Positions 4,661 to 49,955 of a DNA stretch of 64,000 nt are shown one piece after another; positions within the stretch are counted from its first letter, which is position 1; each line of letters starts with the position of its first letter. This DNA comes from Porodaedalea pini (Eukaryota; Basidiomycota; Agaricomycetes; Hymenochaetales; Hymenochaetaceae), in contig NBAY01000003.1 in assembly GCA_002794775.1 (NCBI GenBank), positions 1,798,001-1,862,000 of the forward strand, given 5' to 3'. The notes beneath the pieces are model-generated. The model did no database searches. It saw only the letters and a program-made list of their open reading frames with translations, and was not told where the DNA came from. The position numbers and the translations under genes are program-made.

Positions 4661-5761
4661 TTATATATTATCATGGGACATCCCAATTATTTAGTTTGGG
4701 ATGTCCCACCCAAGTTGCTCTGGGATATCCCATATAATTTAGTTAGGGATGTCCCAACTAAGTCATTCTGGGATATCCCATTATAATCTAATTTGGGATG
4801 TCCCAACCAAGTTGCTATGGGATATCCCACATGATTTAGTCAGGGATATCCCAACTAAGTCATTCTGGGATATCCATTATAATCTAGTTTGGGATATCCC
4901 AACCATGTCACTCTGGGATATCCCAAATAATTTAATCTGGTACATCCCAGGAAATTCACCCTAGAACATTCTACATGTTTTATTCTGTGACATGTCAGAG
5001 GTAAGTAATAGCAAGGATAATAAATCAGTCAACTGAATCATAACAGTTCTGGTTTCAAAGTTTTGCTGATGCTACCTGTGGCATCAAAAGCTAAGGGTTC
5101 AGTACTCTATATAGTTATTATCAGCAATGCCTAGATCTCTCCTACTGATCCTGCATGAGTCATTATTGACCAATTCTCTCTAAGTAGTTATATAATTTAT
5201 ATAGCTGTATCCAAATACTACATTGTCTAAGTTGTACTGATAGTCCTATGCTATATTAGTATCAAAGGCCTCTGATCATCTAGTATATAGCTGTAAACAT
5301 AATACATCCAAGTCTATATAAAAGACAATGTAATGCAGCTGTAACCAAGTATAATATAATTCTGAGCTCCAGTAATGGCATTTGAGAGCTAATCTGACCT
5401 TTCTAACATCAGTCTAATCTATCTATCTATGCATTTTAAGGATAATGATCTTATATATATTTGACCTACAGTTACTGACTGAAAATATACCAGAAATGGG
5501 TCAAAATAAGCCTTGAACATCTATTGAACTGTACAAATTTAGGGCCAAACTGTATGGGATATCCCACCAAGAATCCCCCAGGCACCCTGTGACAGCAATG
5601 AGTCAGCTCAGATGCATAAGGTACTAACTTACTGGTACAGCCCAGCTATGGGATGTCCCACATGCTGGGATGAGCACTATAAAAATGAGGCCCTTTAGGC
5701 AGAACTACCCATAGGGATAGTTCCACCTAAGAGGTACCTTGTAGAAGGGGTACCTGAAGTG
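4660..5761. mobile_element. Putative small element related to the 16.5-kb foldback element
   Basis: Homology to Gypsy reverse transcriptase begins abruptly at about 5762. Directly before it, 5746-5761 reads AGAAGGGGTACCTGAAGTG-like sequence, which closely matches the right terminus of the 16.5-kb element (…GGGGTAGCCTGAAGTG). The interval also holds the GGGATATCCC array and a TATAAAAA box near 5680. I infer a non-autonomous relative whose right end is at 5761. I could not find the matching left terminus or a target duplication, so the left boundary is approximate. It could instead be unrelated AT-rich sequence. No coding sequence is supported between 4960 and 5760. Confidence 0.3.
4674..4951. 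repeat. Array of GGGATATCCC/GGGATGTCCC palindromes
   Basis: About a dozen 10-12 bp palindromes of the form TGGGAT(A/G)TCCCA recur every 22-25 bp, separated by AT-rich linkers such as CTAAGTCATTC and ATAATTTAGT. Linkers alternate, giving a higher-order unit of roughly 47 bp. The same motif occurs singly near 5555 and 5645. The pattern resembles the GGGNNNNCCC arrays in the large foldback element at 6018-22553. Confidence 0.85.
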
Positions 5762-6017
5762 CTGAAACCATAGAGGAACACATCGAGACATTGAGGTGTG
5801 TACTTCAAATCCTTCAAGAGAATGGCCTCTACCTGAAACTGGAGAAATGTGAGTTCGACATCAAGGTTGTTAAATATCTCAGTCACATCATCGGTAACGG
5901 TGAGCTTAAGGCTGACCTGGCAAAGATGGAAGCAATTGCTAGCTGGCCTGCTCTACACAACCTGAAGGAACTTCAGAAGTTCCTTGGCATGGGCAACTGG
6001 CTAAGGTGGTTTATCAA
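5762..6017 (+). pseudogene. Gypsy reverse transcriptase fragment, left of the insertion
   Basis: The frame from about 5766 encodes the C-terminal part of a Ty3/Gypsy reverse transcriptase, with recognisable pieces such as NGLYLKLEKCEF and ELQKFLGMGNWLRWFI. The part upstream of the YxDD catalytic region is missing, and homology starts at 5762 next to another terminus-like sequence. The frame is cut at 6017 by the 16.5-kb foldback element and resumes at 22554 in the same codon register. The retrotransposon is fungal, 5'-truncated and inactive. Confidence 0.85.
6010..6017. repeat. 8-bp target site duplication, left copy
   Basis: TTTATCAA directly precedes the terminal CACTTCAGG of the foldback element. 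The identical octamer follows the mirror terminus at 22554-22561. The interrupted host sequence is the retrotransposon reverse transcriptase, and its reading frame continues across the duplicated octamer, which confirms it as the target site. Confidence 0.93.
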
Positions 6018-6094
6018 CACTTCAGGCTACCCCTCTGAGCAGACCAAGTAAGACTATTCATACACACAACTAATTGACCATTTAGGTATTGACC

Positions 6095-6305
6095 CTGGGC
6101 ATGCCCAATCTGCTGGGCACTCCCAGTGGGTGCGGGTTGGATGTGCCCCATTTTTTTTACTGTGGGAATGTTGGGTGCACCCAGATCATTTGGGCACTCC
6201 CAACTGGGCCTGCCCAGTTTTGGGCACCCCCAGTGGGAGTGCCCTGGGAGTGCCCAGATATGTCACTGTCACTGACTGTCTGGGGGACTTTTGGGCACAC
6301 CCAAT
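6095..6305. repeat. Subterminal TGGGNNNNCCCA palindrome array, left arm
   Basis: At least nine copies of a 12-bp palindrome-like motif occur in about 210 bp, including TGGGCATGCCCA, TGGGTGCACCCA, TGGGCACTCCCA and TGGGAGTGCCCA. The array starts about 75 bp from the element tip, where transposase-binding repeats often lie. Open frames here are by-products of the repeat and have no protein similarity that I recognise. Confidence 0.85.
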
Positions 6306-7200
6306 TTGTTTTTGCCATAAAATCTAGGGGCTTTATAAATGCTGTATTTTATTGTTTTTAATCCTACAATTTAGTGATCTTGCTATTGTTTAGTTTATGA
6401 TTCATTAGCTATGTGACTGACCTTTGGTATGAATTGAATTTTGGTCAACAGTAGTCTGGGTCAGACAGGAAAGAATGCTGAGCATGCTAGACACACAGGA
6501 CAAAATGATATTTGTTGCTATTAGAGAGACTAAGATAATAAAGATAATAGAGATAGTATTGAGCAGTTCTATATACTGTAAGACAAATGGAGAAATAGGG
6601 AAATTGTACAGCAGTGTGAGAGAAATGGAAATAAATATGAGTCAGCTAAAAGTGTAATGACTACCTAAGAAATCATCAATGGTATTCTAACATTAAACAT
6701 TGGGAATCAAGCTCTAGCATTCTAACTATATCAGAGAGATTATATGTCATAGGCTCTATGAGAACTTCTAACTAGAGTGATATAGCTGCACTGGACACTT
6801 AAGTAGAGCTATTTAAAATTAAACAAGTGCAAGGGTCTGATACATTAGGATCAGTTTGAATGCCTAAGTAGAGTAAAGAGTATAAACTAAGAGAGAAACT
6901 GAGATCAAAACATAGAAAGAGTATAAGCCCACTGGAGCATTCTTATCATTTCTGACATGTTGCTGACCTTCTGAACATCATAACTTGACTTTGAGGTACT
7001 AAGCATCTAACGCTCTGAGATACACAAAGTATCAATACAGTGTAAAATCTCAGGATGCAGGGGAAGAGATTCAAAGTTGAAATGAAAGAGAGACTTGAAA
7101 GCAATCAGGCTTGAGCTGTGCTTAAATATTAGGCCTGGACTACTAGCTTAAAAGATTAGATATGACTAGTTGACTGTATCTAAATCTTTTACAGGTGCCT
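6306..7200. other. AT-rich non-coding arm sequence, left
   Basis: This part of the left arm between the two palindrome arrays is AT-rich and holds no gene I can support. Short frames (for example 6475-6657) have the composition of chance ORFs, although the sequence is mirrored at about 21370-22265. Confidence 0.6.
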
Positions 7201-7214
7201 AGTTGAGTATACTC

Positions 7215-7345
7215 AGTATACCAATTATCTGGTGCCAATTATCTGGGGCACCCAGTTGGGTGCTCCCAATTATCTGGGGGTGCCCAGTTGGGTGCTCCCA
7301 ATTATCTGGGGGCGCCCAGTTGGGTACATCCAAATGTCTGAGAGT
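7215..7345. repeat. Second palindrome array (AATTATCTGGGGG…CCC), left arm
   Basis: Three copies of a unit of about 42 bp are arranged in tandem. Each combines AATTATCTGGGG with a TGGGTGCTCCCA palindrome. The mirror copy at about 21220-21350 has small indels relative to this one, so the array is among the less stable parts of the arms. Confidence 0.8.
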
Positions 7346-7689
7346 ACCTAGCTATATAAGGTCTTTTTTAATTCCTGCCTTAGAATCATTTTTTAAAATG
7401 CAAAAAATCATTATGTCATGAAAATTAAATAAGTCTAGAATGGAAGCCTTAATAATTCTATAGATCAATTTCTCAATCATTTTGTTTTAGACTCTGCATC
7501 TTGGCAGCTTCGCTCTGAAGACAAATCAATACACTGCAATCATTGACCCAACACCAGAGCTGCCATGAGATCAAAGACAAGCAAGCATAAAACTTCATTT
7601 TGAAGAGATTACCACCCTGCTCCTCAATAGTGCTCTGTATCTTCTCAATTGCATGCTCAAGGCACTCAGTTGCTGCATACTGCAAACTC

Positions 7690-9027
7690 AAAATAAGTAT
7701 AGGGTTGACGAGGAATACATGTTGACGCGTGTCGCTCAGATTGAACAGGACGCTGCTCATCAAGAAAAGGATGCAATGGCAGTGTATGGCATGCTTTCCG
7801 GTTCAGAGCCTCATATTTCTCCTCTTCGTCATGCTCTCGCTGTCTTTGGCCTTACGCCAGATGACATCGATGTTCTTTCCATCCACGGCACCAGCACCAA
7901 GGCCAACGAAAAGAATGAAACACAGATCTGGAACGATGTTTTCTCTACGCTTGGTCGTACACTTGGAAATGCAGTTCCAATTATGGCACAGAAGAGCTTA
8001 TGTGGTCATTCAAAGGGTGGATCTGCTGCTTGGCAACTCGCCGGTCTGATTCAGACCGTTGGTTCAGGTATCGTTCCCAGAAACCGAAACGCAGAGTAAG
8101 TCATTTTTGGTTCCTCTATAGTGCCGATCTCATTTCTTTCTTGTTTAGTAACGTCGATGCCGATTTCTGCAAGCATGAGTATCTTATGTTGCCTTCGAAA
8201 ACTATCCATACAGATGGCATCTGTTCCGGTATCATGGTATGTTGCTCCATTATCTTTCACATACTAGTCCCGATCTCAACATCTTACAGTCGTCTTTCAG
8301 CTTCAGCCAAGTTGGCGGCACCGTACTCGTCATCCACCCTCGCTTCCTTCTCGGCGCTGTCGAGCCCGCACAGTACGAGGGGTACAAGCTCCACAACCGC
8401 GAGCGTGCATTGGCATGCTACAAAGCCATGACCTCCATGATGACCATAAACTCACTGGTTGAGATCAAGGACGCACCTCCGTATTCGAGCGAGCTGGAAG
8501 TTCCTGTTCTCCTCAACTCTCTGGCACGTGCGGCGCTTGACGATAAGACCGGCAGCTACTCGCTCCCGAAAAAGTTTGCCACAAAGGCGACATTTAATGT
8601 TTCGAATGTCGAGGCTGCTGCCAAGGCCCTTGCAACTGGTAAAGGCTCTCCTGGTGTTGGCGTCAATCATGGTAAGTCTAATTCATATCAATCATCTGAA
8701 ACTCACAGCATACTAATTGGCATTTCGGAGCTCATTTCCGCTGTCCCGTCGTCTAACCCGACTTTCATCTCACGTAACTTTACTGATACGGAGATCGCTT
8801 ACTGCCGCTCGCAGCCTTCACCCGCGGCATTGTTTGCTGCGCGCTGGGCTAGCAAGAAAGCGGTCTTCAAGTTACTTGGAGTCGCTTCGAAGGGATCAGC
8901 GGCAGCGATGGAGGACATCGAGATCCTTCCTGATGCATCGGATGTGCCGTCCGTGACGCTTCACGGCGATGCGCTTGCTGCTGCGGATAGTAAGGGAGTC
9001 ACGCAGGTGCACGTGAGTCTCAGCCAC
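7690..9027 (+). pseudogene. fas2: Captured FAS2 3' fragment (KS C-terminus plus PPT domain), left copy
   Basis: The translation matches the C-terminal part of fungal fatty acid synthase subunit alpha. The end of the ketoacyl synthase domain is clear (YRVDEEYMLTRVAQIE, ALAVFGLTPDDIDVLSIHGT, QVGGTVLVIHPRFL). It is followed by the 4'-phosphopantetheinyl transferase domain (FISRNFTDTEIAYC, WASKKAVFKLLG). Introns are still present, for example 8097-8148 with a GT-AG frame-preserving junction. The fragment lacks the malonyl/palmitoyl transferase, ACP, ketoreductase and most of the KS. It ends at SLSH, where sequence from an unrelated gene begins. In the PPT domain the usual metal-binding Asp-x-Glu region reads ISE, and the usual Lys-Glu-Ala motif reads KKA. 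Activity is therefore unlikely even if it were expressed. Confidence 0.9.
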
Positions 9028-9071
9028 GTAGCAGAGCGCCGACTGCAGGACGCTACGTCTCGTGCGTGAAT

Positions 9072-9687
9072 GGCGAGGCGAGTGCGATGCAGCGCGTATG
9101 CGACGAAGTGCGCAAGCGTATTCGGTATCACTGGTGCTCCTCCTGATCCTGCCGTTGCGGTAACAGGGGAACGCGAGACGACTGTGGTCGAGGACGATGT
9201 GGAAGAGGTGAAGGACGACGGAGGAAGGATCTCGGTGCAGTTGAAGGTATGGCTGACGAAGCGCGCACAGAGCTTGCTGGTGTCTTCGTGCCCGTAGTAA
9301 GTGGCGACTGCCTGTGGGGGTGCTGCCGGCGCGGGGTGGTGCGAGTGGTGTGCGCGCGGGACTGCCGATGACTGTTTTTTTGTCGAACGTTTTCGGCGCG
9401 GTCGGAGGAAAAAAAACGCGATAGAGAAAAAGACACCGATCAACAGCCACTCATCACTCAAGTATCAGAGATCGGGGGGAAAGAGGGGGGACGCTTACAG
9501 AACTCGAGGTAGATGCTGCGGCAGCGGCGGACGCAGAAGACGATTTCGCAGGTGGAGGCGGGGCGTACGTCGCGCGGTGCACGCGCCGGAAGGGCGAGTG
9601 GTTCGAGCTGGCACTCGATGATGATATCGAATGCTGATGCGGATGCGGATGGGGGTGGGGATGGCGCGGGGCGTGGACGGTGGCCAT
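9072..9687 (-). pseudogene. Captured Pho85-type (PCL) cyclin N-terminal fragment, left copy
   Basis: On the minus strand, exon 1 (9499-9687) starts with an ATG and encodes a His/Pro/Ser-rich leader. A 127-nt GT-AG intron with matching phase 0 leads to exon 2 (9072-9371). Exon 2 contains KLCARFVSHTFNCTEI and LAHFVAYALHRTRLA, which I recognise as the start of the cyclin box of PCL-type G1 cyclins. The similarity stops at 9072, where the sequence runs into the reversed FAS2 fragment. The rest of the cyclin box is missing, so it cannot bind a kinase. A second piece, EKDLVPIKTFVA, at about 9776-9844 may come from the same or another cyclin. Confidence 0.65.
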
Positions 9688-9989
9688 ATTCGCTGCGGCG
9701 GGCTCTCTGGCTCTGGGCGTTGACGAGCGTCTGTGAGCGTCAAAGGACAGGTGGAGTTGATGCGTGAGAAGAGGTCGCTACGAATGTTTTGATTGGAACG
9801 AGATCCTTCTCGGACACAACGGTTGCGTCGCGTTCGCCGAAGTGCGCAGTGAGAAAGGCAGATGAGAAAACGGCTGACGTCGATGTTGAGGCGTGTGGAA
9901 CATTGGCGGGGGCAGAAGGAAGAGGTGAGGAATGCGTCCCAGGTGAACAGGGCGAGGGAAGTTGAACCGCTCGACGGTTTCGGTGAATG

Positions 9990-10258
9990 TCGCCAGTCCC
10001 TCCCTGCCTGACAATGACGAGAGAGAGGACAGCGACGTTGCGACCGATGATGCAGCCACGGGCCGGCTTGCACTTTCTCACCAGTGCGGCAGAGACGGTA
10101 GCAAGAGTGACCAGCAGAAAGGAGAAGGCGAGCAGTTACGAATGAGTACACCCTGCTTCATCGGGAAGTCCTGCTCGTCGTTTCCGCCAGAGACGCGGAA
10201 GACGTAGCCCTTGAACTCATCACCGACCAAGTCGCTGGGGACACCTGGGACATCTTCT
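9990..10258 (-). pseudogene. rps6: Captured ribosomal protein S6 fragment, left copy
   Basis: The minus strand encodes [16 protein letters not shown] and MKQGVL, then, in shifted frames, [11 protein letters not shown] and RGCIIGRNVAVLSLVIV. All are hallmarks of eukaryotic ribosomal protein eS6. The start codon, N-terminus and most of the C-terminus are absent, and frameshifts break the rest. The fragment abuts the HSP90 fragment within about 20 bp, in the opposite direction. It is a dead piece of a housekeeping gene, and an intact copy must exist elsewhere. Confidence 0.82.
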
Positions 10259-10276
10259 TGCCGTGGAAAATGCGGT

Positions 10277-11372
10277 AACGACCACCTCGCTATGAAGCAC
10301 TTCTCGGTAGAAGGTCAGCTCGAATTCAAGGCTATTCTCTACATTCCGAAGCGGTGAGTCTCCTTGCTGGCCTTGCTATGAACCTGTTTCTGACGTCTCT
10401 TTTAGCGCACCGTTCGACCTCTTTGAGTCCAAGAAGAAGCGTAACAACATTAAGCTCTACGTCCGCCCCGTCTTCATTATGGACGACTGCGAGGATCTCA
10501 TCCCCGAGTACCTTAACTTCGTCAAGGGTATCGTCGACTCTGAGGATCTCCCGCTCAACATCTCGCGTGAGACGCTCCAGCAGAACAAGATTCTCAAGGT
10601 CATCCGCAAGAACATCGTGAAGAAGTACCTCGACCTCATCCAGGAGATCTCGGAGGACAAGGACAACTTCAAGAAGTTCTACGAGGCGTTCGGCAAGAAC
10701 CTCAAGCTTGGTATCCACGAGGATGCGCAGAACCGCAGCAAGCTCGCCGAGTTCCTCCGCTTCTACTCGACGAAGTCGACTGAGGAGCAGGTCTCGCTGA
10801 AAAAGGGTACGTGTTCAAGCGGCGGCCCTGTTCCGTTATTTGGTTGCTGACAGCTTACCGCAGACTACATCACGCGGATGCCTGAGATTCAGAAGTCCAT
10901 CTACTACCTCACTGGCGAGTCGCTCAATGCCGTCAAGGACTCTCCCTTCCTTGAGGCTCTCAAGAAGAAGGGCTTCGAGGTACTCCTGCTTGTTGACCCG
11001 ATCGACGAGTACGCCGTCACTCAGTTCAAGGAGTTCGACGGTCACAAGCTCGTGTGCGTGTCGAAGGAGGGTCTGGAGCTCGAGGAGACCGAAGAGGAGA
11101 AGGAGCGCGAGAGTGAGGCCTCGCAGTTCGAGGAGCTCTGTAAGGTCGTCAAGGATGCGCTCGGCGACAAGGTCGAGAAGGTCGTCATCTCGAACCGCGT
11201 CACCGACTCACCATGTGTGCTCGTCACCGGCCAGTTCGGCTGGTCCGCAAATATGGAGCACTTCATGAAGGCGCAGGCGCTTCGCGACTCGTCAATGTCA
11301 TCGTACATGGCGTCGAAGAAGACGCTTGAGCTTAACCCGCACAACGCGATCATCAAGGTCCTTCGATGTTGA
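10277..11372 (+). pseudogene. hsp90: Captured HSP90 middle/C-terminal fragment, left copy
   Basis: Three exons (10277-10353, 10406-10806, 10864-11372) with clean GT-AG introns encode the middle domain and most of the dimerisation domain of cytosolic HSP90. Clear motifs are [49 protein letters not shown] and [17 protein letters not shown]. The N-terminal ATPase domain is missing upstream of 10277. The C-terminus is lost after NPHNAIIK, so the MEEVD tail is absent. The reading frame within the fragment is undamaged and codon use is GC-rich like host genes, so capture was recent. Without the ATPase domain it cannot act as a chaperone machine. Confidence 0.95.
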
Positions 11373-11770
11373 TCGTCTTTTGCTGGCCCATCGCCAGGTC
11401 AGCGATGTCGACACTCCATGGCCGGTGGTGTCTTGAGGAGGAGCTCGTCGTGTTCTGTCCCTTCAGGCAAGCAAAAAAAAAATGATGAGAAGTAATTATT
11501 AGTATATTCAAATAGTTTTTATGATTTTTTTTTTGCTTACCTTGAGTGTGTGGCCGGTGGGACAGCCGTGCTCGTCGTCGATGGTGAAGACGAAACGACA
11601 CGAACAACGCGAAAACGTAATACGCCCCGTGATTTCTGATTTAGGCCCCGTGACAGATCCGCGTGCCCCGTGACATATGATTTAGGCCCCATGCACTTTG
11701 TTACTGGCCCCGCTCCTAACCTTTGAGCTAATAACTCAAGAACGGCTGGGCACATCGCAGTGATATGGGT
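11373..11770. other. Unassigned arm segment with GCCCCGTGA repeats
   Basis: After the HSP90 fragment comes a GC-rich piece with intron-like sequence (11463-11540, T/A-rich, bounded by splice-like ends on the minus strand). It may be another captured gene fragment that I cannot name; on the minus strand it reads FTIDDEHGCPTGHTLK. From about 11620 there are four copies of GCCCCGTGA or GCCCCATGC, then TTTGAGCTAATAACTCAAGAACGGC, possibly the end of yet another nested element. Confidence 0.4.
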
Positions 11771-12170
11771 ACCAATCGAAAGCTATTGATGATTAGAGTA
11801 CAGGAAAATTAAGGGTACATAGAAATTCATCCTAATTAGGAAGTTATGAGTAGAACACTCCTGAGCAACACCACCCAGGTCAGCAACTTGTAATGAGACA
11901 ACCACAGCATGTACAGCAATATTAAGACATGTTCTGGAGAGGTGTTGATGCTAGTAATGAGGGAAAAATAATGAATTGTTACCACATACAGTGATTCCCC
12001 ACGAGAGAGTGCCAAAGGAATGGCAGGCTTGTGCAGCTGCTGCCTGGCCACCTAGATCTAATTTTGACTCCTGAGGCAACACAGACATGTAAATTAGATA
12101 GATGAGAGTCATATAATACCATGTATGTATTTGTAATTCTGCTAAAATCAAAAGTTGTAATACTATAATA
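11770..12170. other. Inner part of left arm, no gene
   Basis: AT-rich sequence mirrored at 16395-16795. Small open frames on both strands show no recognisable similarity. I see no support for a gene. Confidence 0.5.
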
Positions 12171-12318
12171 CTAACAATGCAGGGGCAGGATGTTGTGAGA
12201 CCACGTGATGTAAAGACCCACGCATGTCGATGTCATGACCCACATGTGCAGGTCATGACATCGACACGTGAGGGAAAAGTGTCAATCATATACATGGGAT
12301 GCAATTCCTGTGCACAGA

Positions 12319-13434
12319 GCATTGATCATAAAGTGCTTCCAGTAAAGAAATTACAGTATATTATGTGCAATGTCCATGTAATGCAATGTGAACTAGATAT
12401 ACATGTATTGATATATACCAAGTGAGGAAGAGAATGGAAAATTAAAAGAAAAGGAAAACAACAGTAAGAAAATTACAAGAGTAATGAGACAGCATGTCCA
12501 GCAGTTGGTCGAGCAAGGGGATCCCTCACATGGTACTGGCTTGATAAATCCAGCAAACAGGTAGAAAGTTCACCTACAACAATTTCATTGTCATTGAGGA
12601 TGTCAGGCAGTGAGTCTGTCATGAGAGCAATGATAAATGCAGGATCCTTCAAGGTTCATCTCGAACAAATGAGACTATGGTTTCCCCATTCCCCCCTTTG
12701 GTCTACCACATCACCCTCTACTCCACGGTCCATTTATCAGTCGAAATCATCCTTCATCAGTCCATTGAGTGAGTCCAGTGGCAATTCAATTTCAGACAGT
12801 GCAAATAATTTGTATTAGATATTCAGTCTTTGGGAGGATGACCAAAAGGTGTTACAGCACTTCACCCTGGCCATCTGCCTACGTATTGCCACTTTGGGTC
12901 TCCAGGGCATCATGTTAAGGTTTTCCCAGACAGTCAAACCTTTCAAAATATGAGACGCACATTGAAGTCTGTAAACAGGAGGATCAGTGATGATTTCATC
13001 AACCTGAAGTCCTCTCCTGACCACTTGTCACCTGTCAGTAGCCCGATGAACATGCTGATGCTCAGGAAAAAGCAAGATGCGAAAGAATACAGCGAGTTTT
13101 TTGCTCTGTATGGCTCAGCTTCTTTCAAAAAAAGAAGTGATGAGCTTGTCGTGCAATTTGGAGCTGATAAGTTCAATGAAAATGGATACAACGATGTGAG
13201 TGATGCCTTCTTTGTATGTCTCACATTTACCTGATGTTTTCCAAGCACTGTGTTGAAGATGCTGCCATTGTGGCCAGAGAGAATCTTGCATGGGCTTTCC
13301 CAAACTATGAGTTGAGAATTGAGGAGATGGAAAACTTTGTTGACATGCTCAATCAGCTCTGTGTCACCATGTGTCTCCCTTTCATATGCCTCATGAACAA
13401 CAAAGTTAAAACTTATGTCGAGCAGGCAGTCTAG
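12319..13434. other. Left part of the unique centre, possible decayed exons
   Basis: Open frames at 12588-12818, 12950-13234 and 13216-13434 (plus strand) and 12943-13443 (minus strand) overlap, and none shows a domain I recognise. They may be decayed 5' exons of the peptidase-like gene that follows. The interval is not part of the inverted repeat. Confidence 0.3.
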
Positions 13435-13950
13435 CAATCCCATGACGATGTCAATCGGAGTGCATACCCCAAACCAGTCAGCTCCAATGCTTTGAGCGAC
13501 ATTCTTTCACTCATGCAGAATGAAATACCATTGCATGGTGTTCTCTTCTTTGTCCTCTACAAGCACCATTATATTCTCTATGAACACAGCTTCAAGACTA
13601 ATACCATCATGATTCATGACTCCCTAAGCCCTGGCAATTGGCTCCAGGAAAAGATCCTTCAGTCCCTTGACATTTGTGGTCATATGTATCTTGCAGCTTT
13701 CTTATCCAAGGATCACCCCCAAGTTCTGGTACATTGTTATGAATTTGTTTTGTAAAATTTCATTATTCAAACACTCCTCTATCACTAGCTGTCACTCTCT
13801 GAACCTCGTAAAGTATCTGGCATATGTTTCTGGGGAGTTCAGAAGTCTGGAACATCATGCGGCTTTTGGGTGTGCTTTTTTGCTTTGATGATCATTCTAT
13901 GCTGTCAAGAACCTCATCCGTTCAACACTGAGGAAGCCTTATGCTGTTGG
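13435..13950 (+). pseudogene. C48 (Ulp1-like) peptidase remnant A
   Basis: The plus strand encodes LFFVLYKHHYILYEHSF, then NTIMIHDSLS. After one frame change comes a Gln-led Cys motif, QKSGTSCGFWVCFFALMII (Cys codon near 13858). This order (hydrophobic strand with His, Asp strand, then Gln…Cys) is that of Ulp1/SENP-like cysteine peptidases, which are often carried by DNA transposons. Stops separate the parts, so it is inactive. The SUMO protease function is a family inference; transposon versions have unknown substrates. Confidence 0.5.
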
Positions 13951-14679
13951 GTAGGTGAACTGTACCACAAGTATATCTCTAGTGCACTTGGTGGCTTGTC
14001 GGGTTCCTGTGTCTTGCAACATGTCCAGGTTATTGATGTAGCTGCATATAACCAATTGCAGCAGATGTATGATGAGAATAGCATGGTGAGTCATTTTTTG
14101 CACCTCGAGTTGCATACACATTGATTCTCTACATGTCTTTTTTAAAAGTGGGCTCCCAGATCAATGGCGGCAGACAACATTCATAAACGACACATTGCAT
14201 TTCATTCTTCACCATCTATCAACAGAGCTTTGGATCATCTGCCTATTGTAACACCCTGAGTGCTTTCTTTTGATAATTCTCTCAAAGACTCACAGTTGAA
14301 AAATGCTAAGATCAAAACAAAGAACTCATCATCAGACTCCTTCCTTACTGTGCCTTCATTCTCATCTGATTCATTTCAGACTGCACAAAGGCATTCCTCC
14401 ACACCTTCCGCTCTCGGTGAACCATTTGTCCTTCGAACACCTATCAAGCCTCCTCCCCCGCACAACTTAACAGCTCTTCAGGCCTCTATAATACATTGAC
14501 AGAGCCCCTTGCTTCGCAACTTCGAAGAGAGGTGTGTCTCATGCTTGTCCTTTTTATCCACAACTCAGCAGTTGTCTGGCTGATAGCTTCAGCATAAAAT
14601 ACGTATTTCAACGGCATCTCCCCAATGCAGACCAAAATACAAACTGAAACCTGCACATGGAAGGCAGATTTCTTATCAT

Positions 14680-15449
14680 GCAGATGAGCTTTCTAGCTTG
14701 CACTCAAAGGACTTGGTGAGCAGTGATGCTTTGTGCCCATTTGCTGCTCTCCTGTCCTAATGTCTTGGGCCAAAGTTGGTCTTCATGTCAACGTTTTTTA
14801 TGTCACAGCTGTGCCAACAAAGCTACAAAGCTGTTTCCAGACCATTTGACAAAACAAAGGTATTTATTTCTCACATTTTGCATGACTGCGTCTCATACTT
14901 TCAAACTCTTATCAGACAAGACTGTTTGATGGCAGCATCAGAAAAATGTTCTGCCCTGTGTCACAACCTCTTATGGAGTGCAGGACCAAAGGTCGCAAGA
15001 GTAGTGGGAGCCATTGGAGCCTTTGTGTCATCGATTTTGAGAAGCAGCAGATCCAGTATTGGAATAGCATTTCAAGTGCTGCTTTTGATGACTCTAAAGT
15101 GATTGAAGTGGTATGTTTTTTACTTAAAATGTGCTTTTCTGGCTTATAAGATGTTTATGTGCTTGTAGGAAATTTATAAATACCTCTGTAGACATTGGTC
15201 TGCTGAGAAACACCCCAACTCCCTTCCTTCCAAATGGAGTTTTGTAACAATGAAGGCAATTTTCATTCGGTCCCTCATTTTCAGTATGTCTTTACTTCCT
15301 CATTGCTTCAGTCGAATTTGCAGAACAATGGCTATGACTGTGGTGTTTTTATGATGGCCAACATGCTGTCTATTGCTATAGACCTTCCTCTCTTCTCTCA
15401 AGACCATATAGGGAGCTTGTGGCAGCATTTTACTCTTCAGCTCCTTTGA
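14680..15449 (+). pseudogene. C48 (Ulp1-like) peptidase remnant B
   Basis: A clear Ulp1-type catalytic core is visible. SHWSLCVIDFEKQQIQYWNS carries the catalytic His (codon near 15012). After a GT-AG intron at about 15109-15167, LQNNGYDCGVFMMANML carries the Gln/Asn and catalytic Cys (codon 15339-15341). The upstream part (14723-15100) is split between frames. No SUMO-binding N-terminal region is recognisable. A Ser/Pro-rich stretch follows (15477-15800). With remnant A this gives two peptidase modules in the centre, either a duplicated gene or two genes. Confidence 0.7.
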
Positions 15450-16141
15450 AAAACAATATTCCTCCCTGAATACAACTTGGCCAGGATTTCACATGACGAA
15501 CAGCCCAAGCCTTCAACTGCAAGCCCCCAGCCCACCAGTTCTCCATTTCATATCACCTTTCATCTCAACACATCAAGCCCATCAACTCCTCACACTCCAA
15601 AAATCGACTGCAAGTTGATTACCAGCAAGGAAGATATTCATGCAGCTGCCTCTCTTCTCAAACTTGCAACAACACCGCGTTCAGAGGCCACTGACTTTGC
15701 TGAAGTAGAAGGAATGGAGGAGCTCAACTTGCAGGACACACAGAATGTTCATTTTGCCTCAAAAGCATCAGTTAGGATATATACAACGCTCTCCAGGTAA
15801 GAAGATTTTCCATTACTGTCTGCCCTTCTTTCTGACCATTTATTGTGATAAACAGAACTTCTGCCGTGAGGGACCTTCAATCCTCAGATGAGACTCTCCT
15901 CGGTTCTAAGGAATAGAATAGATAATGATACAGACATTTCCAGCCAACTATCATTGCTTGTCTACTTATTTGGACTTTCTCTGAACGCTGCACTTCCAGC
16001 GCATAAGTATACCTATTTTACTTGTCATATGAAACTCAATGACATATTTGTACTGGCTGCAACACTACCTGTGTGTCATTTGACAATTTGCTTCATTTCT
16101 GAGTCCCTTAGCACACTAACAAATGAGGGCAGCTCCATGCC
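15450..16141. other. Right part of the unique centre
   Basis: A 107-codon Ser/Thr/Pro-rich open frame (15477-15800) may be the tail of the peptidase-like gene, since a donor-like GTAAGA follows at 15796. Beyond it I see only short frames without recognisable similarity. Confidence 0.3.
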
Positions 16142-16170
16142 AGTCTCTGTGCGTGGGAATTGCATCCTGA

Positions 16171-16350
16171 TGTCATGACATCGATGCATGCAGGTCATGA
16201 CATTGACGCGTGTGGGTCATGACATTGACGCATGCAGGTCATGACATTGACGCGTGTGGGTCATGACATCGACGCACGCAGATCATGACATCAATGCGTG
16301 TGGGTCATGACATCAACACGTGCGGGTCATGACATCGACATGCGTGGGTC
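16171..16350. repeat. 22-bp tandem array at the inner end of the right arm
   Basis: About eight units of the pattern GGTCATGACATCGACGCGTGT stand in tandem, with alternating variants (ATTGACGCATGCA, ATCAACACGTGC). GTCATGAC and ACGCGT are themselves palindromic. The left arm has only about two units at 12214-12265, one of them in the opposite orientation. The array therefore changed copy number after the arms formed or differed from the start. Confidence 0.9.
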
Positions 16351-16394
16351 TTTACATCACGTGGTCTCACAACATCCTGCCCCTGCATTGTTAG

Positions 16395-17192
16395 TATTAT
16401 AGTATTACAACTTTTAATTTTAGCAGAATTACAAATACATACATGGTATTATATGACTCTCATCTATCTAATTTACATGTCTGTGTTGCCTCAGGAGTCA
16501 AAATTAGATCTAGGTGGCCAGGCAGCAGCTGCACAAGCCTGCCATTCCTTTGGCACTCTCTCGTGGGGAATCACTGTATGTGGTAACAATTCATTATTTT
16601 TCCCTCATTACTAGCATCAACACCTCTCCAGAACATGTCTTAATATTGCTGTACATGCTGTGGTTGTCTCATTACAAGTTGCTGACCTGGGTGGTGTTGC
16701 TCAGGAGTGTTCTACTCATAACTTCCTAATTAGGATGAATTTCTATGTACCCTTAATTTTCCTGTACTCTAATCATCAATAGCTTTCGATTGGTACCCAT
16801 ATCACTGCGATGTGCCCAGCCGTTCTTGAGTTATTAGCTCAAAGGTTAGGAGCGGGGCCAGTAACAAAGTGCATGGGGCCTAAATCATATGTCACGGGGC
16901 ACGCGGATCTGTCACGGGGCCTAAATCAGAAATCACGGGGCGTATTACGTTTTCGCGTTGTTCGTGTCGTTTCGTCTTCACCATCGACGACGAGCACGGC
17001 TGTCCCACCGGCCACACACTCAAGGTAAGCAAAAAAAAAATCATAAAAACTATTTGAATATACTAATAATTACTTCTCATCATTTTTTTTTTGCTTGCCT
17101 GAAGGGACAGAACACGACGAGCTCCTCCTCAAGACACCACCGGCCATGAAGTGTCGACATCGCTGACCTGGCGATGGGCCAGCAAAAGACGA
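16395..17192. other. Unassigned inner right-arm segment
   Basis: Mirror of 11373-12170, with the same GCCCCGTGA repeats (about 16835-16945) and the same intron-like T/A-rich stretch near 17025-17100. No gene is recognised. Confidence 0.4.
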
Positions 17193-18288
17193 TCAACATC
17201 GAAGGACCTTGATGATCGCGTTGTGCGGGTTAAGCTCAAGCGTCTTCTTCGACGCCATGTACGATGACATTGACGAGTCGCGAAGCGCCTGCGCCTTCAT
17301 GAAGTGCTCCATATTTGCGGACCAGCCGAACTGGCCGGTGACGAGCACACATGGTGAGTCGGTGACGCGGTTCGAGATGACGACCTTCTCGACCTTGTCG
17401 CCGAGCGCATCCTTGACGACCTTACAGAGCTCCTCGAACTGCGAGGCCTCACTCTCGCGCTCCTTCTCCTCTTCGGTCTCCTCGAGCTCCAGACCCTCCT
17501 TCGACACGCACACGAGCTTGTGACCGTCGAACTCCTTGAACTGAGTGACGGCGTACTCGTCGATCGGGTCAACAAGCAGGAGTACCTCGAAGCCCTTCTT
17601 CTTGAGAGCCTCAAGGAAGGGAGAGTCCTTGACGGCATTGAGCGACTCGCCAGTGAGGTAGTAGATGGACTTCTGAATCTCAGGCATTCGCGTGATGTAG
17701 TCTGCGGTAAGCTGTCAGCAACCAAATAACGGAACAGGGCCGCCGCTTGAACACGTACCCTTTTTCAGCGAGACCTGCTCCTCAGTCGACTTCGTCGAGT
17801 AGAAGCGGAGGAACTCGGCGAGCTTGCTGCGGTTCTGCGCATCCTCGTGGATACCAAGCTTGAGGTTCTTGCCGAACGCCTCGTAGAACTTCTTGAAGTT
17901 GTCCTTGTCCTCCGAGATCTCCTGGATGAGGTCGAGGCACTTCTTCACGATGTTCTTGCGGATGACCTTGAGAATCTTGTTCTGCTGGAGCGTCTCACGC
18001 GAGATGTTGAGCGGGAGATCCTCAGAGTCGACGATACCCTTGACGAAGTTAAGGTACTCGGGGATGAGATCCTCGCAGTCGTCCGTAATGAAGACGGGGC
18101 GGACGTAGAGCTTAATGTTGTTACGCTTCTTCTTGGATTCAAAGAGGTCGAACGGTGCGCTAAAAGAGACGTCAGAAACAGGTTCATAGCAAGGCCAGCA
18201 AGGAGACTCACCGCTTCGGAATGTAGAGAATAGCCTTGAATTCGAGCTGACCTTCTACCGAGAAGTGCTTCATAGCGAGGTGGTCGTT
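17193..18288 (-). pseudogene. hsp90: Captured HSP90 middle/C-terminal fragment, right copy
   Basis: Reverse-oriented twin of the fragment at 10277-11372, with the same three exons, introns and truncations. A few substitutions distinguish the copies. For example, the exon 2 codon after KNIVKK is changed here so that the tract reads KKCLDLIQE instead of KKYLDLIQE, and single bases differ near 17695 and 18150. Neither copy has an ATPase domain. Confidence 0.95.
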
Positions 18289-18306
18289 ACCGCATTTTCC
18301 ACGGCA

Positions 18307-18575
18307 AGAAGATGTCCCAGGTGTCCCCAGCGACTTGGTCGGTGATGAGTTCAAGGGCTACGTCTTCCGCGTCTCTGGCGGAAACGACGAGCAGGACTTC
18401 CCGATGAAGCAGGGTGTACTCATTCGTAACTGCTCGCCTTCTCCTTTCTGCTGGTCACTCTTGCTACCGTCTCTGCCGCACTGGTGAGAAAGTGCAAGCC
18501 GGCCCGTGGCTGCATCATCGGTCGCAACGTCGCTGTCCTCTCTCTCGTCATTGTCAGGCAGGGAGGGACTGGCGA
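18307..18575 (+). pseudogene. rps6: Captured ribosomal protein S6 fragment, right copy
   Basis: Twin of 9990-10258. It reads [16 protein letters not shown] on the plus strand, then drifts through other frames for AGHSCYR and AVLSLVIV. It has the same breakpoints and frameshifts as the left copy, so these arose before the arms duplicated. Confidence 0.82.
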
Positions 18576-18877
18576 CATTCACCGAAACCGTCGAGCGGTT
18601 CAACTTCCCTCGCCCTGTTCACCTGGGACGCATTCCTCACCTCTTCCTTCTGCCCCCGCCAATGTTCCACACGCCTCAACATCGACGTCAGCCGTTTTCT
18701 CATCTGCCTTTCTCACTGCGCACTTCGGCGAACGCGACGCTACCGTTGTGTCCGAGAAGGATCTCGTTCCAATCAAAACATTCGTAGCGACCTCTTCTCA
18801 CGCATCAACTCCACCTGTCCTTTGACGCTCACAGACGCTCGTCAACGCCCAGAGCCAGAGAGCCCGCCGCAGCGAAT

Positions 18878-19493
18878 ATGGCCACCGTCCACGCCCCGCG
18901 CCATCCCCACCCCCATCCGCATCCGCATCAGCATTCGATATCATCATCGAGTGCCAGCTCGAACCACTCGCCCTTCCGGCGCGTGCACCGCGCGACGTAC
19001 GCCCCGCCTCCACCTGCGAAATCGTCTTCTGCGTCCGCCGCTGCCGCAGCATCTACCTCGAGTTCTGTAAGCGTCCCCCCTCTTTCCCCCCGATCTCTGA
19101 TACTTGAGTGATGAGTGGCTGTTGATCGGTGTCTTTTTCTCTATCGCGTTTTTTTTCCTCCGACCGCGCCGAAAACGTTCGACAAAAAAACAGTCATCGG
19201 CAGTCCCGCGCGCACACCACTCGCACCACCCCGCGCCGGCAGCACCCCCACCGGCAGTCGCCACTTACTACGGGCACGAAGACACCAGCAAGCTCTGTGC
19301 GCGCTTCGTCAGCCATACCTTCAACTGCACCGAGATCCTTCCTCCGTCGTCCTTCACCTCTTCCACATCGTCCTCGACCACAGTCGTCTCGCGTTCCCCT
19401 GTTACCGCAACGGCAGGATCAGGAGGAGCACCAGTGATACCGAATACGCTTGCGCACTTCGTCGCATACGCGCTGCATCGCACTCGCCTCGCC
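18878..19493 (+). pseudogene. Captured Pho85-type (PCL) cyclin N-terminal fragment, right copy
   Basis: Twin of 9072-9687: exon 1 at 18878-19066, a 127-nt intron, exon 2 at 19194-19493. It encodes a His/Pro-rich leader and the start of the cyclin box, and is cut off by the FAS2 fragment. The possible second cyclin piece EKDLVPIKTFVA lies at about 18721-18789. Confidence 0.65.
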
Positions 19494-19537
19494 ATTCACG
19501 CACGAGACGTAGCGTCCTGCAGTCGGCGCTCTGCTAC

Positions 19538-20875
19538 GTGGCTGAGACTCACGTGCACCTGCGTGACTCCCTTACTATCCGCAGCAGCAAGCGCATCGCC
19601 GTGAAGCGTCACGGACGGCACATCCGATGCATCAGGAAGGATCTCGATGTCCTCCATCGCTGCCGCTGATCCCTTCGAAGCGACTCCAAGTAACTTGAAG
19701 ACCGCTTTCTTGCTAGCCCAGCGCGCAGCAAACAATGCCGCGGGTGAAGGCTGCGAGCGGCAGTAAGCGATCTCCGTATCAGTAAAGTTACGTGAGATGA
19801 AAGTCGGGTTAGACGACGGGACAGCGGAAATGAGCTCCGAAATGCCAATTAGTATGCTGTGAGTTTCAGATGATTGATATGAATTAGACTTACCATGATT
19901 GACGCCAACACCAGGAGAGCCTTTACCAGTTGCAAGGGCCTTGGCAGCAGCCTCGACATTCGAAACATTAAATGTCGCCTTTGTGGCAAACTTTTTCGGG
20001 AGCGAGTAGCTGCCGGTCTTATCGTCAAGCGCCGCACGTGCCAGAGAGTTGAGGAGAACAGGAACTTCCAGCTCGCTCGAATACGGAGGTGCGTCCTTGA
20101 TCTCAACCAGTGAGTTTATGGTCATCATGGAGGTCATGGCTTTGTAGCATGCCAATGCACGCTCGCGGTTGTGGAGCTTGTACCCCTCGTACTGTGCGGG
20201 CTCGACAGCGCCGAGAAGGAAGCGAGGGTGGATGACGAGTACGGTGCCGCCAACTTGGCTGAAGCTGAAAGACGACTGTAAGATGTTGAGATCGGGACTA
20301 GTATGTGAAAGATAATGGAGCAACATACCATGATACCGGAACAGATGCCATCTGTATGGATAGTTTTCGAAGGCAACATAAGATACTCATGCTTGCAGAA
20401 ATCGGCATCGACGTTACTAAACAAGAAAGAAATGAGATCGGCACTATAGAGGAACCAAAAATGACTTACTCTGCGTTTCGGTTTCTGGGAACGATACCTG
20501 AACCAACGGTCTGAATCAGACCGGCGAGTTGCCAAGCAGCAGATCCACCCTTTGAATGACCACATAAGCTCTTCTGTGCCATAATTGGAACTGCATTTCC
20601 AAGTGTACGACCAAGCGTAGAGAAAACATCGTTCCAGATCTGTGTTTCATTCTTTTCGTTGGCCTTGGTGCTGGTGCCGTGGATGGAAAGAACATCGATG
20701 TCATCTGGCGTAAGGCCAAAGACAGCGAGAGCATGACGAAGAGGAGAAATATGAGGCTCTGAACCGGAAAGCATGCCATACACTGCCATTGCATCCTTTT
20801 CTTGATGAGCAGCGTCCTGTTCAATCTGAGCGACACGCGTCAACATGTATTCCTCGTCAACCCTATACTTATTTT
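19538..20875 (-). pseudogene. fas2: Captured FAS2 3' fragment, right copy
   Basis: Twin of 7690-9027 with the same domain content (end of ketoacyl synthase plus phosphopantetheinyl transferase), the same introns and the same substitutions at the expected metal-binding positions. The breakpoints are identical, so this is a copy of the same captured piece rather than a second capture. Confidence 0.9.
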
Positions 20876-22264
20876 GAGTTTGCAGTATGCAGCAACTGAG
20901 TGCCTTGAGCATGCAATTGAGAAGATACAGAGCACTATTGAGGAGCAGGGTGGTAATCTCTTCAAAATGAAGTTTTATGCTTGCTTGTCTTTGATCTCAT
21001 GGCAGCTCTGGTGTTGGGTCAATGATTGCAGTGTATTGATTTGTCTTCAGAGCGAAGCTGCCAAGATGCAGAGTCTAAAACAAAATGATTGAGAAATTGA
21101 TCTATAGAATTATTAAGGCTTCCATTCTAGACTTATTTAATTTTCATGACATAATGATTTTTTGCATTTTAAAAAATGATTCTAAGGCAGGAATTAAAAA
21201 AGACCTTATATAGCTAGGTACTCTCAGACATTTGGATGTACCCAACTGGGCGCCCCCAGATAATTGGGAGCACCCAACTGGGCACCCCCAGATAATTGGG
21301 AGCACCCAACTGGGTGCCCCAGATAATTGGGCACACCCAGATAATTGGGTATACTGAGTATACTCAACTAGGCACCTGTAAAAGATTTAGATACAGTCAA
21401 CTAGTCATATCTAATCTTTTAAGCTAGTAGTCCAGGCCTAATATTTAAGCACAGCTCAAGCCTGATTGCTTTCAAGTCTCTCTTTCATTTCAACTTTGAA
21501 TCTCTTCCCCTGCATCCTGAGATTTTACACTGTATTGATACTTTGTGTATCTCAGAGCGTTAGATGCTTAGTACCTCAAAGTCAAGTTATGATGTTCAGA
21601 AGGTCAGCAACATGTCAGAAATGATAAGAATGCTCCAGTGGGCTTATACTCTTTCTATGTTTTGATCTCAGTTTCTCTCTTAGTTTATACTCTTTACTCT
21701 ACTTAGGCATTCAAACTGATCCTAATGTATCAGACCCTTGCACTTGTTTAATTTTAAATAGCTCTACTTAAGTGTCCAGTGCAGCTATATCACTCTAGTT
21801 AGAAGTTCTCATAGAGCCTATGACATATAATCTCTCTGATATAGTCAGAATGCTAGAGCTTGATTCCCAATGTTTAATGTTAGAATACCATTGATGATTT
21901 CTTAGGTAGTCATTACACTTTTAGCTGACTCATATTTATTTCCATTTCTCTCACACTGCTGTACAATTTCCCTATTTCTCCATTTGTCTTACAGTATATA
22001 GAACTGCTCAATACTATCTCTATTATCTTTATTATCTTAGTCCCTCTAATAGCAACAAATATCATTTTGTCCTGTGTGTCTAGCATGCTCAGCATTCTTT
22101 CCTGTCTGACCCAGACTACTGTTGACCAAAATTCAATTCATACCAAAGGTCAGTCACATAGCTAATGAATCATAAACTAAACAATAGCAAGATCACTAAA
22201 TTGTAGGATTAAAAACAATAAAATACAGCATTTATAAAGCCCCTAGATTTTATGGCAAAAACAA
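20876..22264. repeat. Outer right arm, non-coding, with second palindrome array
   Basis: Mirror of 6306-7690. It contains the AATTATCTGGGG/TGGGTGCTCCCA array at about 21220-21350 and AT-rich non-coding sequence. No gene is supported. Confidence 0.7.
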
Positions 22265-22475
22265 ATTGGGTGTGCCCAAAAGTCCCCCAGACAGTCAGTG
22301 ACAGTGACATATCTGGGCACTCCCAGGGCACTCCCACTGGGGGTGCCCAAAAACTGGGCAGGCCCAGTTGGGAGTGCCCAAATGATCTGGGTGCACCCAA
22401 CATTCCCACAGTAAAAAAAATGGGGCACATCCAACCCACACCCACTGGGAGTGCCCAGCAGATTGGGCACGCCCA
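22265..22475. repeat. Subterminal TGGGNNNNCCCA palindrome array, right arm
   Basis: Mirror of 6095-6305, with the same nine or more palindromes and a few substitutions (for example one TGGGCGTGCCCA where the left arm has TGGGCATGCCCA). It ends about 78 bp from the tip. Confidence 0.85.
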
Positions 22476-22553
22476 GGGTCAATACCTAAATGGTCAATTA
22501 GTTGTGTGTATGAATAGTCCTACTTGGTCTGCTCAGAGGGGTAGCCTGAAGTG

Positions 22554-25110: not shown

Positions 25111-25112
25111 TA

Positions 25113-26187: not shown

Positions 26188-26189
26188 TA

Positions 26190-47331: not shown

Positions 47332-47715
47332 GGTATTTGTTTTCCTTTTTTTTTCATAATTAACATATACCTGATTGATTATTCTTTTGCAGGATGCAAG
47401 TAACATGCATGTTCAGTGAATTGATCTCATTATTCAATAACTTAGACAATCATTTTGTTTTCTGGTCTATGAACCATTCTTTGTGAATGGATCTATATGT
47501 GTTTTGCCATTTGTAGCAAGTCTAAGCAGGCTCTGGTTCGAACTGTTCTTAGCTTACAAACATATTCTTTAAATGGCAACAAACTACTTAATATGTACAT
47601 ATACCGAATGGATCAGGTGGCTGATCCATTCTAACTGAAAACCAATTGTTTAACTGAACGAAGCTCCTGTGAATTTGCATTCACCCTAAGCGCTCTCCCT
47701 TTTGCTATGTAGATA
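47332..47715. other. AT-rich interval after KDZ remnant
   Basis: It may contain the last KDZ exon after an acceptor at about 47394. It holds a perfect 11-bp-arm palindrome at 47606-47631. No gene is supported. Confidence 0.4.
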
Positions 47716-48606: not shown

Positions 48607-48978
48607 TATGTATCAAAATCGTGCAATGGGTATTGAATAACATTCATGGATGACTCGTATTGGCTGGGAACACAGTTCAAAGCATGAACAGGACAACATT
48701 TGGAAGAAATAAAGGAACTATTTACCTCCATTTTATAATGTGAACATTCAATGAATTGTTTGCATTTAAAACTCTACATCGCCTAAGGTTTCTTTGCATT
48801 TTGAAACTCCGCCATGAATGAGGCGCGTTCTTGCCCCGTGATTTACAATTTATAAGTGCTGCTGTCTACTACTAGCAGGCTCCCAACCACTACATGAAAC
48901 TGAGAAACTAACAAACTGAGCCAGACGTAGTGCATAATAAGGTGGGGCGTAAAAATGTGATGTGTAACTAAAAGGTTA

Positions 48979-49953: not shown

Positions 49954-49955
49954 TA

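Follow-up and report, generated by a model that had tools for sequence, protein, structure and literature searches.

Foldback elements such as FB and FARE have long, variable inverted repeats that are able to carry other sequence. The closest described systems, each taken here from part of the paper cited, include the KDZ (Kyakuja-Dileera-Zisupton) transposons, whose target duplications measure 8 bp in Zisupton and Dileera and 7 bp in Kyakuja, the latter with CA..TG ends (Kojima 2025, PMC12730594). In fungi, the KDZ1-3 elements of Cryptococcus are ~9-11 kb in size with inverted repeats of 139-241 bp (PMC12810828), and the two Kyakuja families of Laccaria have no inverted repeats. Tm1, of the foldback type, produces mostly 9-bp duplications and has long, variable repeats that can carry other sequence; its elements are ~0.5-3 kb, and the mean identity of the two repeats is 93.15% (PMC3169594). 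In Drosophila willistoni, copy 112 of Galileo (P superfamily) is 9021 bp long, with inverted repeats of 4246 and 4680 bp, target duplications and no transposase, and long-TIR Galileo copies have recruited internal and foreign transposable-element sequence into both repeats (PMC4168063). Pack-MULEs hold host gene fragments between inverted repeats and are mobilised in trans (PMC6431247). Finally, a process yielding hairpin-capped linear DNA and inverted copies has been described (PMC10766183).

We analysed a 64,000-nucleotide stretch (the window) of contig NBAY01000003.1 (C3) in one assembly of Porodaedalea pini (GCA_002794775.1; 53-Mb genome). The element in the window is very probably one insertion of a non-autonomous, almost fully palindromic DNA transposon family, mobilised by the KDZ transposase of larger relatives with the same tips.

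The copy in the window

Comparing the window with itself returned a single long inverted pair (5994-12259 against 22577-16304, identity 99.47%), and the element occupies 16,536 bp (window 6018-22553; C3:1804018-1820553). In a global alignment of the arms 25 of 6250 columns differ, several of them at the inner edge; after trimming, arms of 6233 and 6241 bp show 16 substitutions and 5 gap runs around a loop of 4062 bp. The 18-bp tip (≤2 mismatches) matches the window twice, at 6018 and 22553, against a chance expectation of 0.01. The element lies between two perfect copies of TTTATCAA and, once it and one duplication are removed in silico, the interrupted Gypsy frame runs on (FLGMGNWLRWFIKDYSKVVQPLM), confirming the exact boundaries proposed in an earlier note on this DNA. 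The Gypsy target gene is decayed, with stops elsewhere in the same frame. A chance palindrome and an artefact were both rejected for this copy on the basis of the tip expectation, the 16 arm differences, the duplication and the unmirrored flanks. Arms, tips and duplication all bear out the note's reading of a DNA transposon of foldback type whose inverted repeats are very long.

The arm length claimed in the note, ~6.3 kb, agrees with the inverted pair of ~6.2 kb, but the ~640 bp at the inner end of each arm, together with the 4-kb centre, belong to another inverted-repeat transposon, and the family arm measures ~5.6 kb. The centre that is conserved in the family has been replaced by this inner transposon, whose flanks mirror each other instead of forming a target duplication. 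The window copy is a rearranged family member, its arms mirrored around a foreign inverted-repeat transposon, which would have displaced the usual ~300-bp loop and would now act as the pivot.

Table 1 Features of the window copy, in window positions
Feature	Position	Strand	Basis or remark
Gypsy polymerase frame, left part, interrupted; continues from 22562	5758..6017	+	reading frame
Left target duplication TTTATCAA, 8 bp	6010..6017	+	sequence comparison
Family tips CACTTCAGG	both element ends		
Left arm, 6233 bp, tip CACTTCAGGCTACCCCTC	6018..12250	+	tip match and arm alignment
FAS2 fragment, ketoacyl synthase C-terminal part and ACPS domain, two frames	7702..9027	+	95.2% to resident gene (contig C9)
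eS6 ribosomal protein fragment, separate frames, PF01092	9740..10314	-	
HSP90 fragment with short intron	10280..11362	+	95.6% to resident gene C3:769757-771424
Other inverted-repeat transposon, ~640-bp ends	11610..16955		right border set by arm register
Ulp1/C48 protease fragment within inner transposon, PF02902, 9.6e-5	15207..15449	+	profile match
Right arm, 6241 bp, reverse complement of left arm	16313..22553	-	arm alignment
HSP90 fragment, mirror copy	17203..18285	-	position by arm register
eS6 fragment, mirror copy	18251..18825	+	position by arm register
FAS2 fragment, mirror copy	19538..20863	-	position by arm register
Right target duplication TTTATCAA	22554..22561	+	sequence comparison

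The palindromic family and its KDZ relatives

Further insertions with these tips, which the note had named as the support to look for, are abundant. The tip matches the 53-Mb genome 65 times (29 forward, 36 reverse; control pattern, 0), forming 24 convergent pairs including that of the window, although some contigs may be allelic and these copy numbers therefore inflated. Mirrored arms were present in 13 of 13 other copies fetched. Eleven of these are near-complete palindromes of 10.7-13.8 kb, with arms of 5.1-6.7 kb and loops of 113-502 bp, while C19 and C69 are palindromes each broken by one unmirrored 6.25-kb LTR-retrotransposon-like insert. Among the copies read, the commonest form is a complete palindrome of ~13 kb, and 9 of the 11 loops compared contain a homologous ~300-bp loop.

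At 23 of the 26 tip pairs tested, the flanks hold a target duplication of 6-8 bp, against 2 of 650 in a mispaired control; the perfect 8-bp duplication claimed in the note thus holds for the window copy, but the family-wide value is 6-8 bp. By size there are nine of 8 bp, eleven of 7 bp, one of 6 bp and two of 7 bp with a mismatch, and no duplication was found at C25, C14b and C105. Like a foldback element, the family moves as a unit, with these duplications at the element ends, and inverted repeats make up most of the element (11 copies; the window copy has its 4062-bp loop). The palindrome stops at the tips, the flanks being unmirrored in 11 of 12 copies compared; in C29a, a 69-bp flank stretch is mirrored at 79.7%, as though the element had landed in a palindromic MITE that was already there.

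As the note had claimed, host genes have been captured. Arms across the family carry eS6, FAS2 and HSP90 fragments, with DENND11 in one copy. Cargo differs between copies, and its breakpoints are common to the fetched copies that have it (FAS2, 6 of 6; HSP90, 5 of 5). Because the HSP90 intron is kept, the pieces probably entered the arm as DNA. The two-frame layout of FAS2, the same in the resident gene, presumably reflects an intron between the frames. Relative to the resident genes, HSP90 fragments show 23-25 silent and 6-8 replacement codon differences (five copies, one with a stop), and FAS2 fragments 29-35 silent and 27-32 replacement differences (five copies; C20, 59.5 and 53.5). The HSP90 pattern suggests constraint, or else a donor that had diverged from the resident gene beforehand. 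Two further FAS2 matches, C50:80702-81442 and C121:2008-2718, lie outside mirrored pairs, which the family as described does not account for.

None of the 77 genomic matches to the KDZ transposase profile PF18758 lies within C3:1804018-1820553. The search for a transposase-coding relative, proposed in the note, yielded a KDZ exon in two larger elements, the candidate sources of the enzyme. The element at C28:3533-25584 has the 24-bp tip at both ends with 0 mismatches, ACTTGTAT on either side as an 8-bp duplication, inverted repeats of 4.02 kb and a PF18758 exon (2.4e-60); its terminal ~400 bp match the C46 arm at 79-85% and the window copy at 84%. The sole close DNA relative of this exon (84%) is in C2:501266-530822, with ten others of the 12 matches at 68-71%. 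The C2 element, read directly at its tips, shares the first 18 tip bases (3 mismatches in 24) and has an 8-bp duplication; mirrored segments lie 2.5-4.6 kb inward from each of its ends.

The palindromes thus have terminal sequence in common with a KDZ-coding element and target duplications in the 7-8-bp range (8 bp in the window copy). Since larger elements with shared tips and duplications hold copies of the KDZ exon, the palindromes are most likely non-autonomous derivatives of KDZ-transposase elements, and the transposase of these relatives probably mobilises them in trans. C28 contains nothing that matches the palindromes' central core, represented by 862 bp of C46, so the palindromes are not simply deleted forms of the C28 element.

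Likeness of the arms and its origin

In 11 of 12 copies the two arms agree at ~99.7-100% along ~6 kb, and the central 783-791 bp show 0 substitutions between arms in 11 of 11 copies (a comparison that leaves out the window copy, which is without the family core), whereas divergence between copies is 0-12.9% (median 5.2%, 55 comparisons). In C20, a MITE that is absent from C46 sits at mirror positions in both arms, with 0/865 differing. Near-identity within copies against divergence between them, together with the mirrored MITE, leads us to infer that the arms of a copy have repeatedly been copied one from the other. This homogenisation is neither instant nor universal, since the LTR inserts of C19 and C69 are unmirrored, the two arms differ in length in C29a and C66 (163 and 261 gap columns) and the outer 3 kb of the C144 arms derive from two lineages (38 differences counted).

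Outside C144 we counted 26 arm differences, skipping gap positions and positions near arm ends, and true differences may in part have been erased by assembly polishing. Twenty occur in a single arm of a single copy and nowhere else, 3 are uninformative and 3 have both letters present in other copies. Across 6080 columns in four sister copies, 43 private sites are mirrored and 8 unmirrored (9 'other' columns fall outside these counts), and no column differs between arms in two or more of these copies. Counts from a second copy group (33 'other' columns) were not used, and the 258 mirrored-private sites of the window copy are inflated by its different centre; in this second group, the arms of both C121 and C46 differ at the same six loop-edge columns. 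C19 and C69 are outside the arm-identity, arm-difference, central and sister-copy counts.

Arms of mammalian Y-chromosome palindromes are kept alike by gene conversion. Ordinary intrachromosomal conversion could act in the same way here, in place, on palindromes inserted by plain cut-and-paste transposition, and we give this close to an even chance. Copy-specific substitutions often occur in both arms, as the sister copies show, and none separates the arms near the centre; both points favour conversion in place. Against this, the C19 and C69 inserts have LTRs 99.8-100% identical and are still unmirrored, short palindromes in the window are not homogenised (25111-26189, 91.6%; 47710-48612, 90.6%; 49103-49956, 93.0%), and the MITE within C20, itself a palindrome, reaches only 90.7%. 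These objections are not decisive, because conversion may need long homology. Homogenisation might instead be part of the transposition cycle: the element, once excised or while replicating, would fold so that one arm is synthesised from the other and new insertions are symmetric. We consider this quite possible: it fits the 20 of 26 differences private to one arm of one copy, the lack of shared differing columns among the sisters, the unmirrored flanks, and the window copy, whose duplication is perfect even though its arms mirror each other around a foreign pivot. However, an element that folded back in place and then moved tip to tip in the ordinary way would look no different, and C121 and C46 share their six differing loop-edge columns.

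Folding could also have arisen in the assembly, through fold-back chimeric reads. C25, whose arms have no substitution over ~6660 bp and which combines an atypical loop with the missing target duplication, may be such a case; as an account of the family this is scarcely credible, given the differing flanks with target duplications at 23 of 26 pairs, flanks that are unmirrored in 11 of 12 copies, and arm differences that remain in the window copy (16) and C144 (39). A composite of two smaller elements, head to head and moving by their outer ends, would account for inverted arms and a unique middle. It is very unlikely, as 9 of 11 loops are homologous, and it was rejected because the copies scanned for the tip, with up to 3 substitutions allowed in 16 bases, had no inner one.

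For the non-autonomous KDZ palindrome that we favour, the enzyme would cut at both tips and reinsert the element, and host gene pieces would enter one arm as DNA. The arms would be made alike repeatedly, one serving as template for the other, either when a folded hairpin or cruciform is repaired or when the template switches at an inverted repeat close to the centre. In this way, a single-arm insertion or capture could become mirrored. A bolder and rather doubtful version makes self-templated copying part of the transposition cycle: the DNA would fold at its centre and the ~6-kb arm be rebuilt at each move, so that copies are born symmetric, single-arm captures are doubled in inverted form, and the pivot can be exchanged for the inverted ends of another transposon.

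Significance and comparison with known systems

Palindromes this large and this close to perfect should be unstable, yet the family occupies dozens of assembly sites. Its cargo differences, mirrored insertion, chimeric copy and unmirrored young insertions offer a natural series for measuring palindrome maintenance. With this family, the link between KDZ elements and gene capture would reach further than the TET/JBP gene, and fungal assemblies may be broken or folded by such elements. If transcribed, the arms would form kilobase hairpins homologous to HSP90, FAS2 and eS6, of relevance to RNA silencing.

A search of PMC, which mostly does not cover subscription papers and is therefore weak evidence, found, among the papers listed, no full-length-palindrome KDZ element or fungal family of this kind. 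Described fungal KDZ elements are similar in their 7-8-bp duplications, and the KDZ exon occurs here in two relatives whose first 18 tip bases are shared. Unlike the described elements, one coding relative here carries repeats of 4.0 kb, and its non-coding kin take the form of palindromes holding captured genes. Within the parts of the papers cited, Pack-MULEs differ from the P. pini family, which has gene fragments inside both arms, mirrored, and Tm1 differs from the P. pini copies, 11 of 12 of which have arms ~99.7-100% identical along ~6 kb. The hairpin-capping process, which has no transposon connection in the part cited, is one candidate copying step here. Galileo belongs to another superfamily and kingdom and, as far as that part of the paper goes, its copy is exceptional rather than a proliferated family and has no housekeeping-gene cargo; its long-TIR copies are nonetheless the nearest structural precedent. 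The class of giant gene-capturing foldback elements suggested in the note has its counterpart in a multicopy family with mirrored gene cargo, and this palindromic family is a variant of an already known kind of element, not a new kind.

Arm symmetry within copies

We compared the two arms of each copy of this foldback family, a set of non-autonomous palindromic elements sharing the tips of the window copy. In the 783-791 bp core adjoining the loop, no arm-versus-arm substitution was found in 11 of 11 copies (the window copy, where the core is absent, is excluded), while the same core differs between copies by 0-12.9% (55 pairs, median 5.2%). Over whole arms, 10 of 12 copies carry 0-8 substitutions, the exceptions being the window copy (16) and C144 (39); arm lengths are unequal in C29a (163 gap columns) and C66 (261). 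All 38 differences counted in C144 fall in the outer 3.0 kb, none further inward. There the left arm is mostly C25-like and the right arm mostly C121/C46-like, so that the arms derive from two lineages and C144 is a chimaera.

Copies other than C144 gave 26 counted arm differences in total. At 20 of these, one arm holds a letter unique among copies and the other that of sister copies; neither context occurs elsewhere at 3, and both letters occur in other copies at the remaining 3. Among four sister copies, 43 private sites are mirrored against 8 unmirrored, and no alignment column has an arm difference in two copies; a second group has six such columns, at the loop edge. In C20 a MITE, apparently flanked by a TA duplication, sits at the matching position of both arms (0 of 865 positions differ), where C46 has an empty site. 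Nine of 11 copies keep the loop of about 300 bp, which can lie either way round; it is different in C25 and C57.

The window copy arms match C46 up to 11609 and then give way to sequence that in other places, such as C34, forms an inverted-repeat element of its own. Its two flanks in the window copy are reverse complements, not a target duplication. The simplest reading is that the palindrome re-formed around the inner transposon, or that a mirrored insertion later lost its centre; both require copying between arms. DNA beyond the tips is unmirrored in 11 of 12 copies, C29a being the exception, and the copying was therefore either inside the element or in place before later tip-to-tip transposition.

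Support is roughly equal for gene conversion in place and for copying of the arms within the transposition cycle. Conversion accords with the many copy-specific sites that are mirrored; were it fast, however, the two inserts with near-identical LTRs (C19, C69) would not be expected to stay unmirrored, nor short palindromes of the same genome to remain at 90.6-93%.

Family size, insertion sites and captured genes

The genome searched comprises 53.27 Mb in 201 contigs. Cut at its tips, the window copy measures 16,536 bp, with arms of 6233 and 6241 bp (16 substitutions, 5 gap runs) and a 4062-bp loop. TTTATCAA stands on either side as target duplication, and the tip is present in the window at just these two ends. 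As the earlier note had claimed, the Gypsy frame resumes across the insertion, reading on once the element and one duplication are deleted.

The further insertions with the same tips that it named as support were also found: the family is multicopy, many members having target duplications. Using the first 500 bp of the window copy, we scored 40 places of 137 candidates, among which were at least 13 further plus/minus pairs 10-19 kb apart; all 13 were retrieved as sequence. A pattern search with the 24-bp tip (≤3 mismatches) gave 65 genome matches (control pattern, 0), including 24 convergent pairs with that of the window copy counted. Eleven of the 13 retrieved copies are near-complete palindromes of 10.7-13.8 kb with 113-502 bp loops. 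The other two, C19 and C69, are each broken by a single 6.25-kb insert in one arm only, called LTR-retrotransposon-like because its ends are direct repeats of 414-423 bp (identity 99.8% in one insert and 100% in the other). These inserts are related (89% to each other).

Scoring 40 of 106 candidates for the core and 40 of 44 for the HSP90 piece gave, in each search, at least 20 mirrored pairs. The members of the C50 pair lie far apart, and C90 has a single core match without a partner among scored matches. A sister tip (CACTTCAGGCTACCCCTAA...), found in C51, C90, C105, C50, C74 and C81, with mirrored HSP90 copies nearby in the first four, is the mark of a second subfamily. Since some contigs may be alternative haplotypes, these counts are of assembly loci, not haploid copy number. 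In six contigs (C63, C74, C81, C119, C162, C168) a single tip is found ≤13 kb from the contig end toward which the element would extend, as expected if palindromes break assembly.

Target duplications were assessed at 26 tip pairs (the 24 convergent pairs, C51 and C105). Exact duplications of 8, 7 and 6 bp were found at 9, 11 and 1 pairs, and 7 bp with one mismatch at 2; C25, C14b and C105 had none. Mispaired flanks gave duplications in 2 of 650 cases.

Wherever a retrieved copy holds a FAS2 or HSP90 piece, that piece is present in both arms. Breakpoints are shared by all such copies (FAS2, 6 of 6; HSP90, 5 of 5). A short HSP90 intron is retained, so this piece was captured from DNA. The mostly silent HSP90 differences from the resident gene would fit either a donor (a different allele or another species) that had diverged beforehand, or constraint on the piece. 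Other middle segments are common to C120, C29a, C29b and C35; eS6 is present too in C57 and C66, and C57 holds a DENND11 piece. A FAS2 match at C50 has no scored mirror partner.

Coordinates of features (bare positions refer to the window, 1798001-1862000 of contig C3)
Feature	Position	Observation
Window copy, inverted pair	5994-12259 vs 22577-16304	Sole long inverted pair of the window (self-comparison), 99.47% identity
FAS2 piece, window copy		PF02801, PF01648
HSP90 piece, window copy		PF00183
eS6 piece, window copy		PF01092 in separate frames
Smaller decayed self-palindromes	25111-26189, 47710-48612, 38363-38618, 49103-49956	Halves 75-93%; ends of the last like the MITE mirrored in C20
KDZ transposase fragment	45406-45777 (C3:1843406-1843777)	Two stops, low score, not close to C28 exon
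Resident HSP90 gene	C3:769757-771424	95.3-95.6% identity to pieces; 23-25 silent, 6-8 replacement differences from arm pieces (5 copies)
Resident FAS2 gene	C9	90-95% identity to pieces
Further FAS2 match	C121:2008-2718	
Inner element, example	C34:195883-201487	~640-bp ends, interior as in window copy
C19 copy	C19:44609-63683	
C69 copy	C69:59507-78735	
C144 copy	C144:21888-34813	
C25 copy	C25:129738-143564	Arms without substitutions, no target duplication, unusual 502-bp loop; possible assembly foldback or rearranged copy
C29a flanks	C29:3350-3848, 17198-17697	Inverted MITE-like sequence, 69 bp at 79.7%; C29a seems inserted within an older palindromic MITE
C28 element	C28:3533-25584	22 kb, ACTTGTAT at both sides
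C2 element	C2:501266-530822	8-bp duplication

KDZ transposase and comparison with known elements

A profile search gave 77 genome matches to PF18758 (KDZ; Kyakuja-Dileera-Zisupton), which falls inside 2 of the 24 tip-bounded intervals, the larger relatives C28 and C2. The inverted repeats of the C28 element measure 4.02 kb and are 98.3% identical (5 mismatches, 64 gap columns). Its KDZ exon matches PF18758 at 2.4e-60, and the only close DNA relative of this exon lies in C2 (84%; the other 10 matches, 68-71%). In the C2 tips the first 18 bases are those of the family tip, with 3 mismatches over the 24, and the C28-type repeat recurs in C2 as mirrored segments 2.5-4.6 kb inward of each end. A multi-kb inverted repeat is thus already present in a coding element of this kind, the ends of which are common to the palindromes. 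No match to the core of the palindromes was found in C28. We infer that KDZ transposase mobilises the palindromes.

A family of this kind was not among the papers listed by our literature searches. In the excerpts of two papers, inverted repeats of KDZ elements are described as short or absent (PMC12730594, PMC12810828). The best structural precedent is Galileo copy 112, which is 9 kb long with 4.2-4.7-kb repeats and foreign TE sequence in both; transfer from repeat to repeat has already been proposed for Galileo (PMC4168063). What seems new in the present family is its scale, near-perfect symmetry, housekeeping-gene cargo, dozens of loci and link to KDZ.
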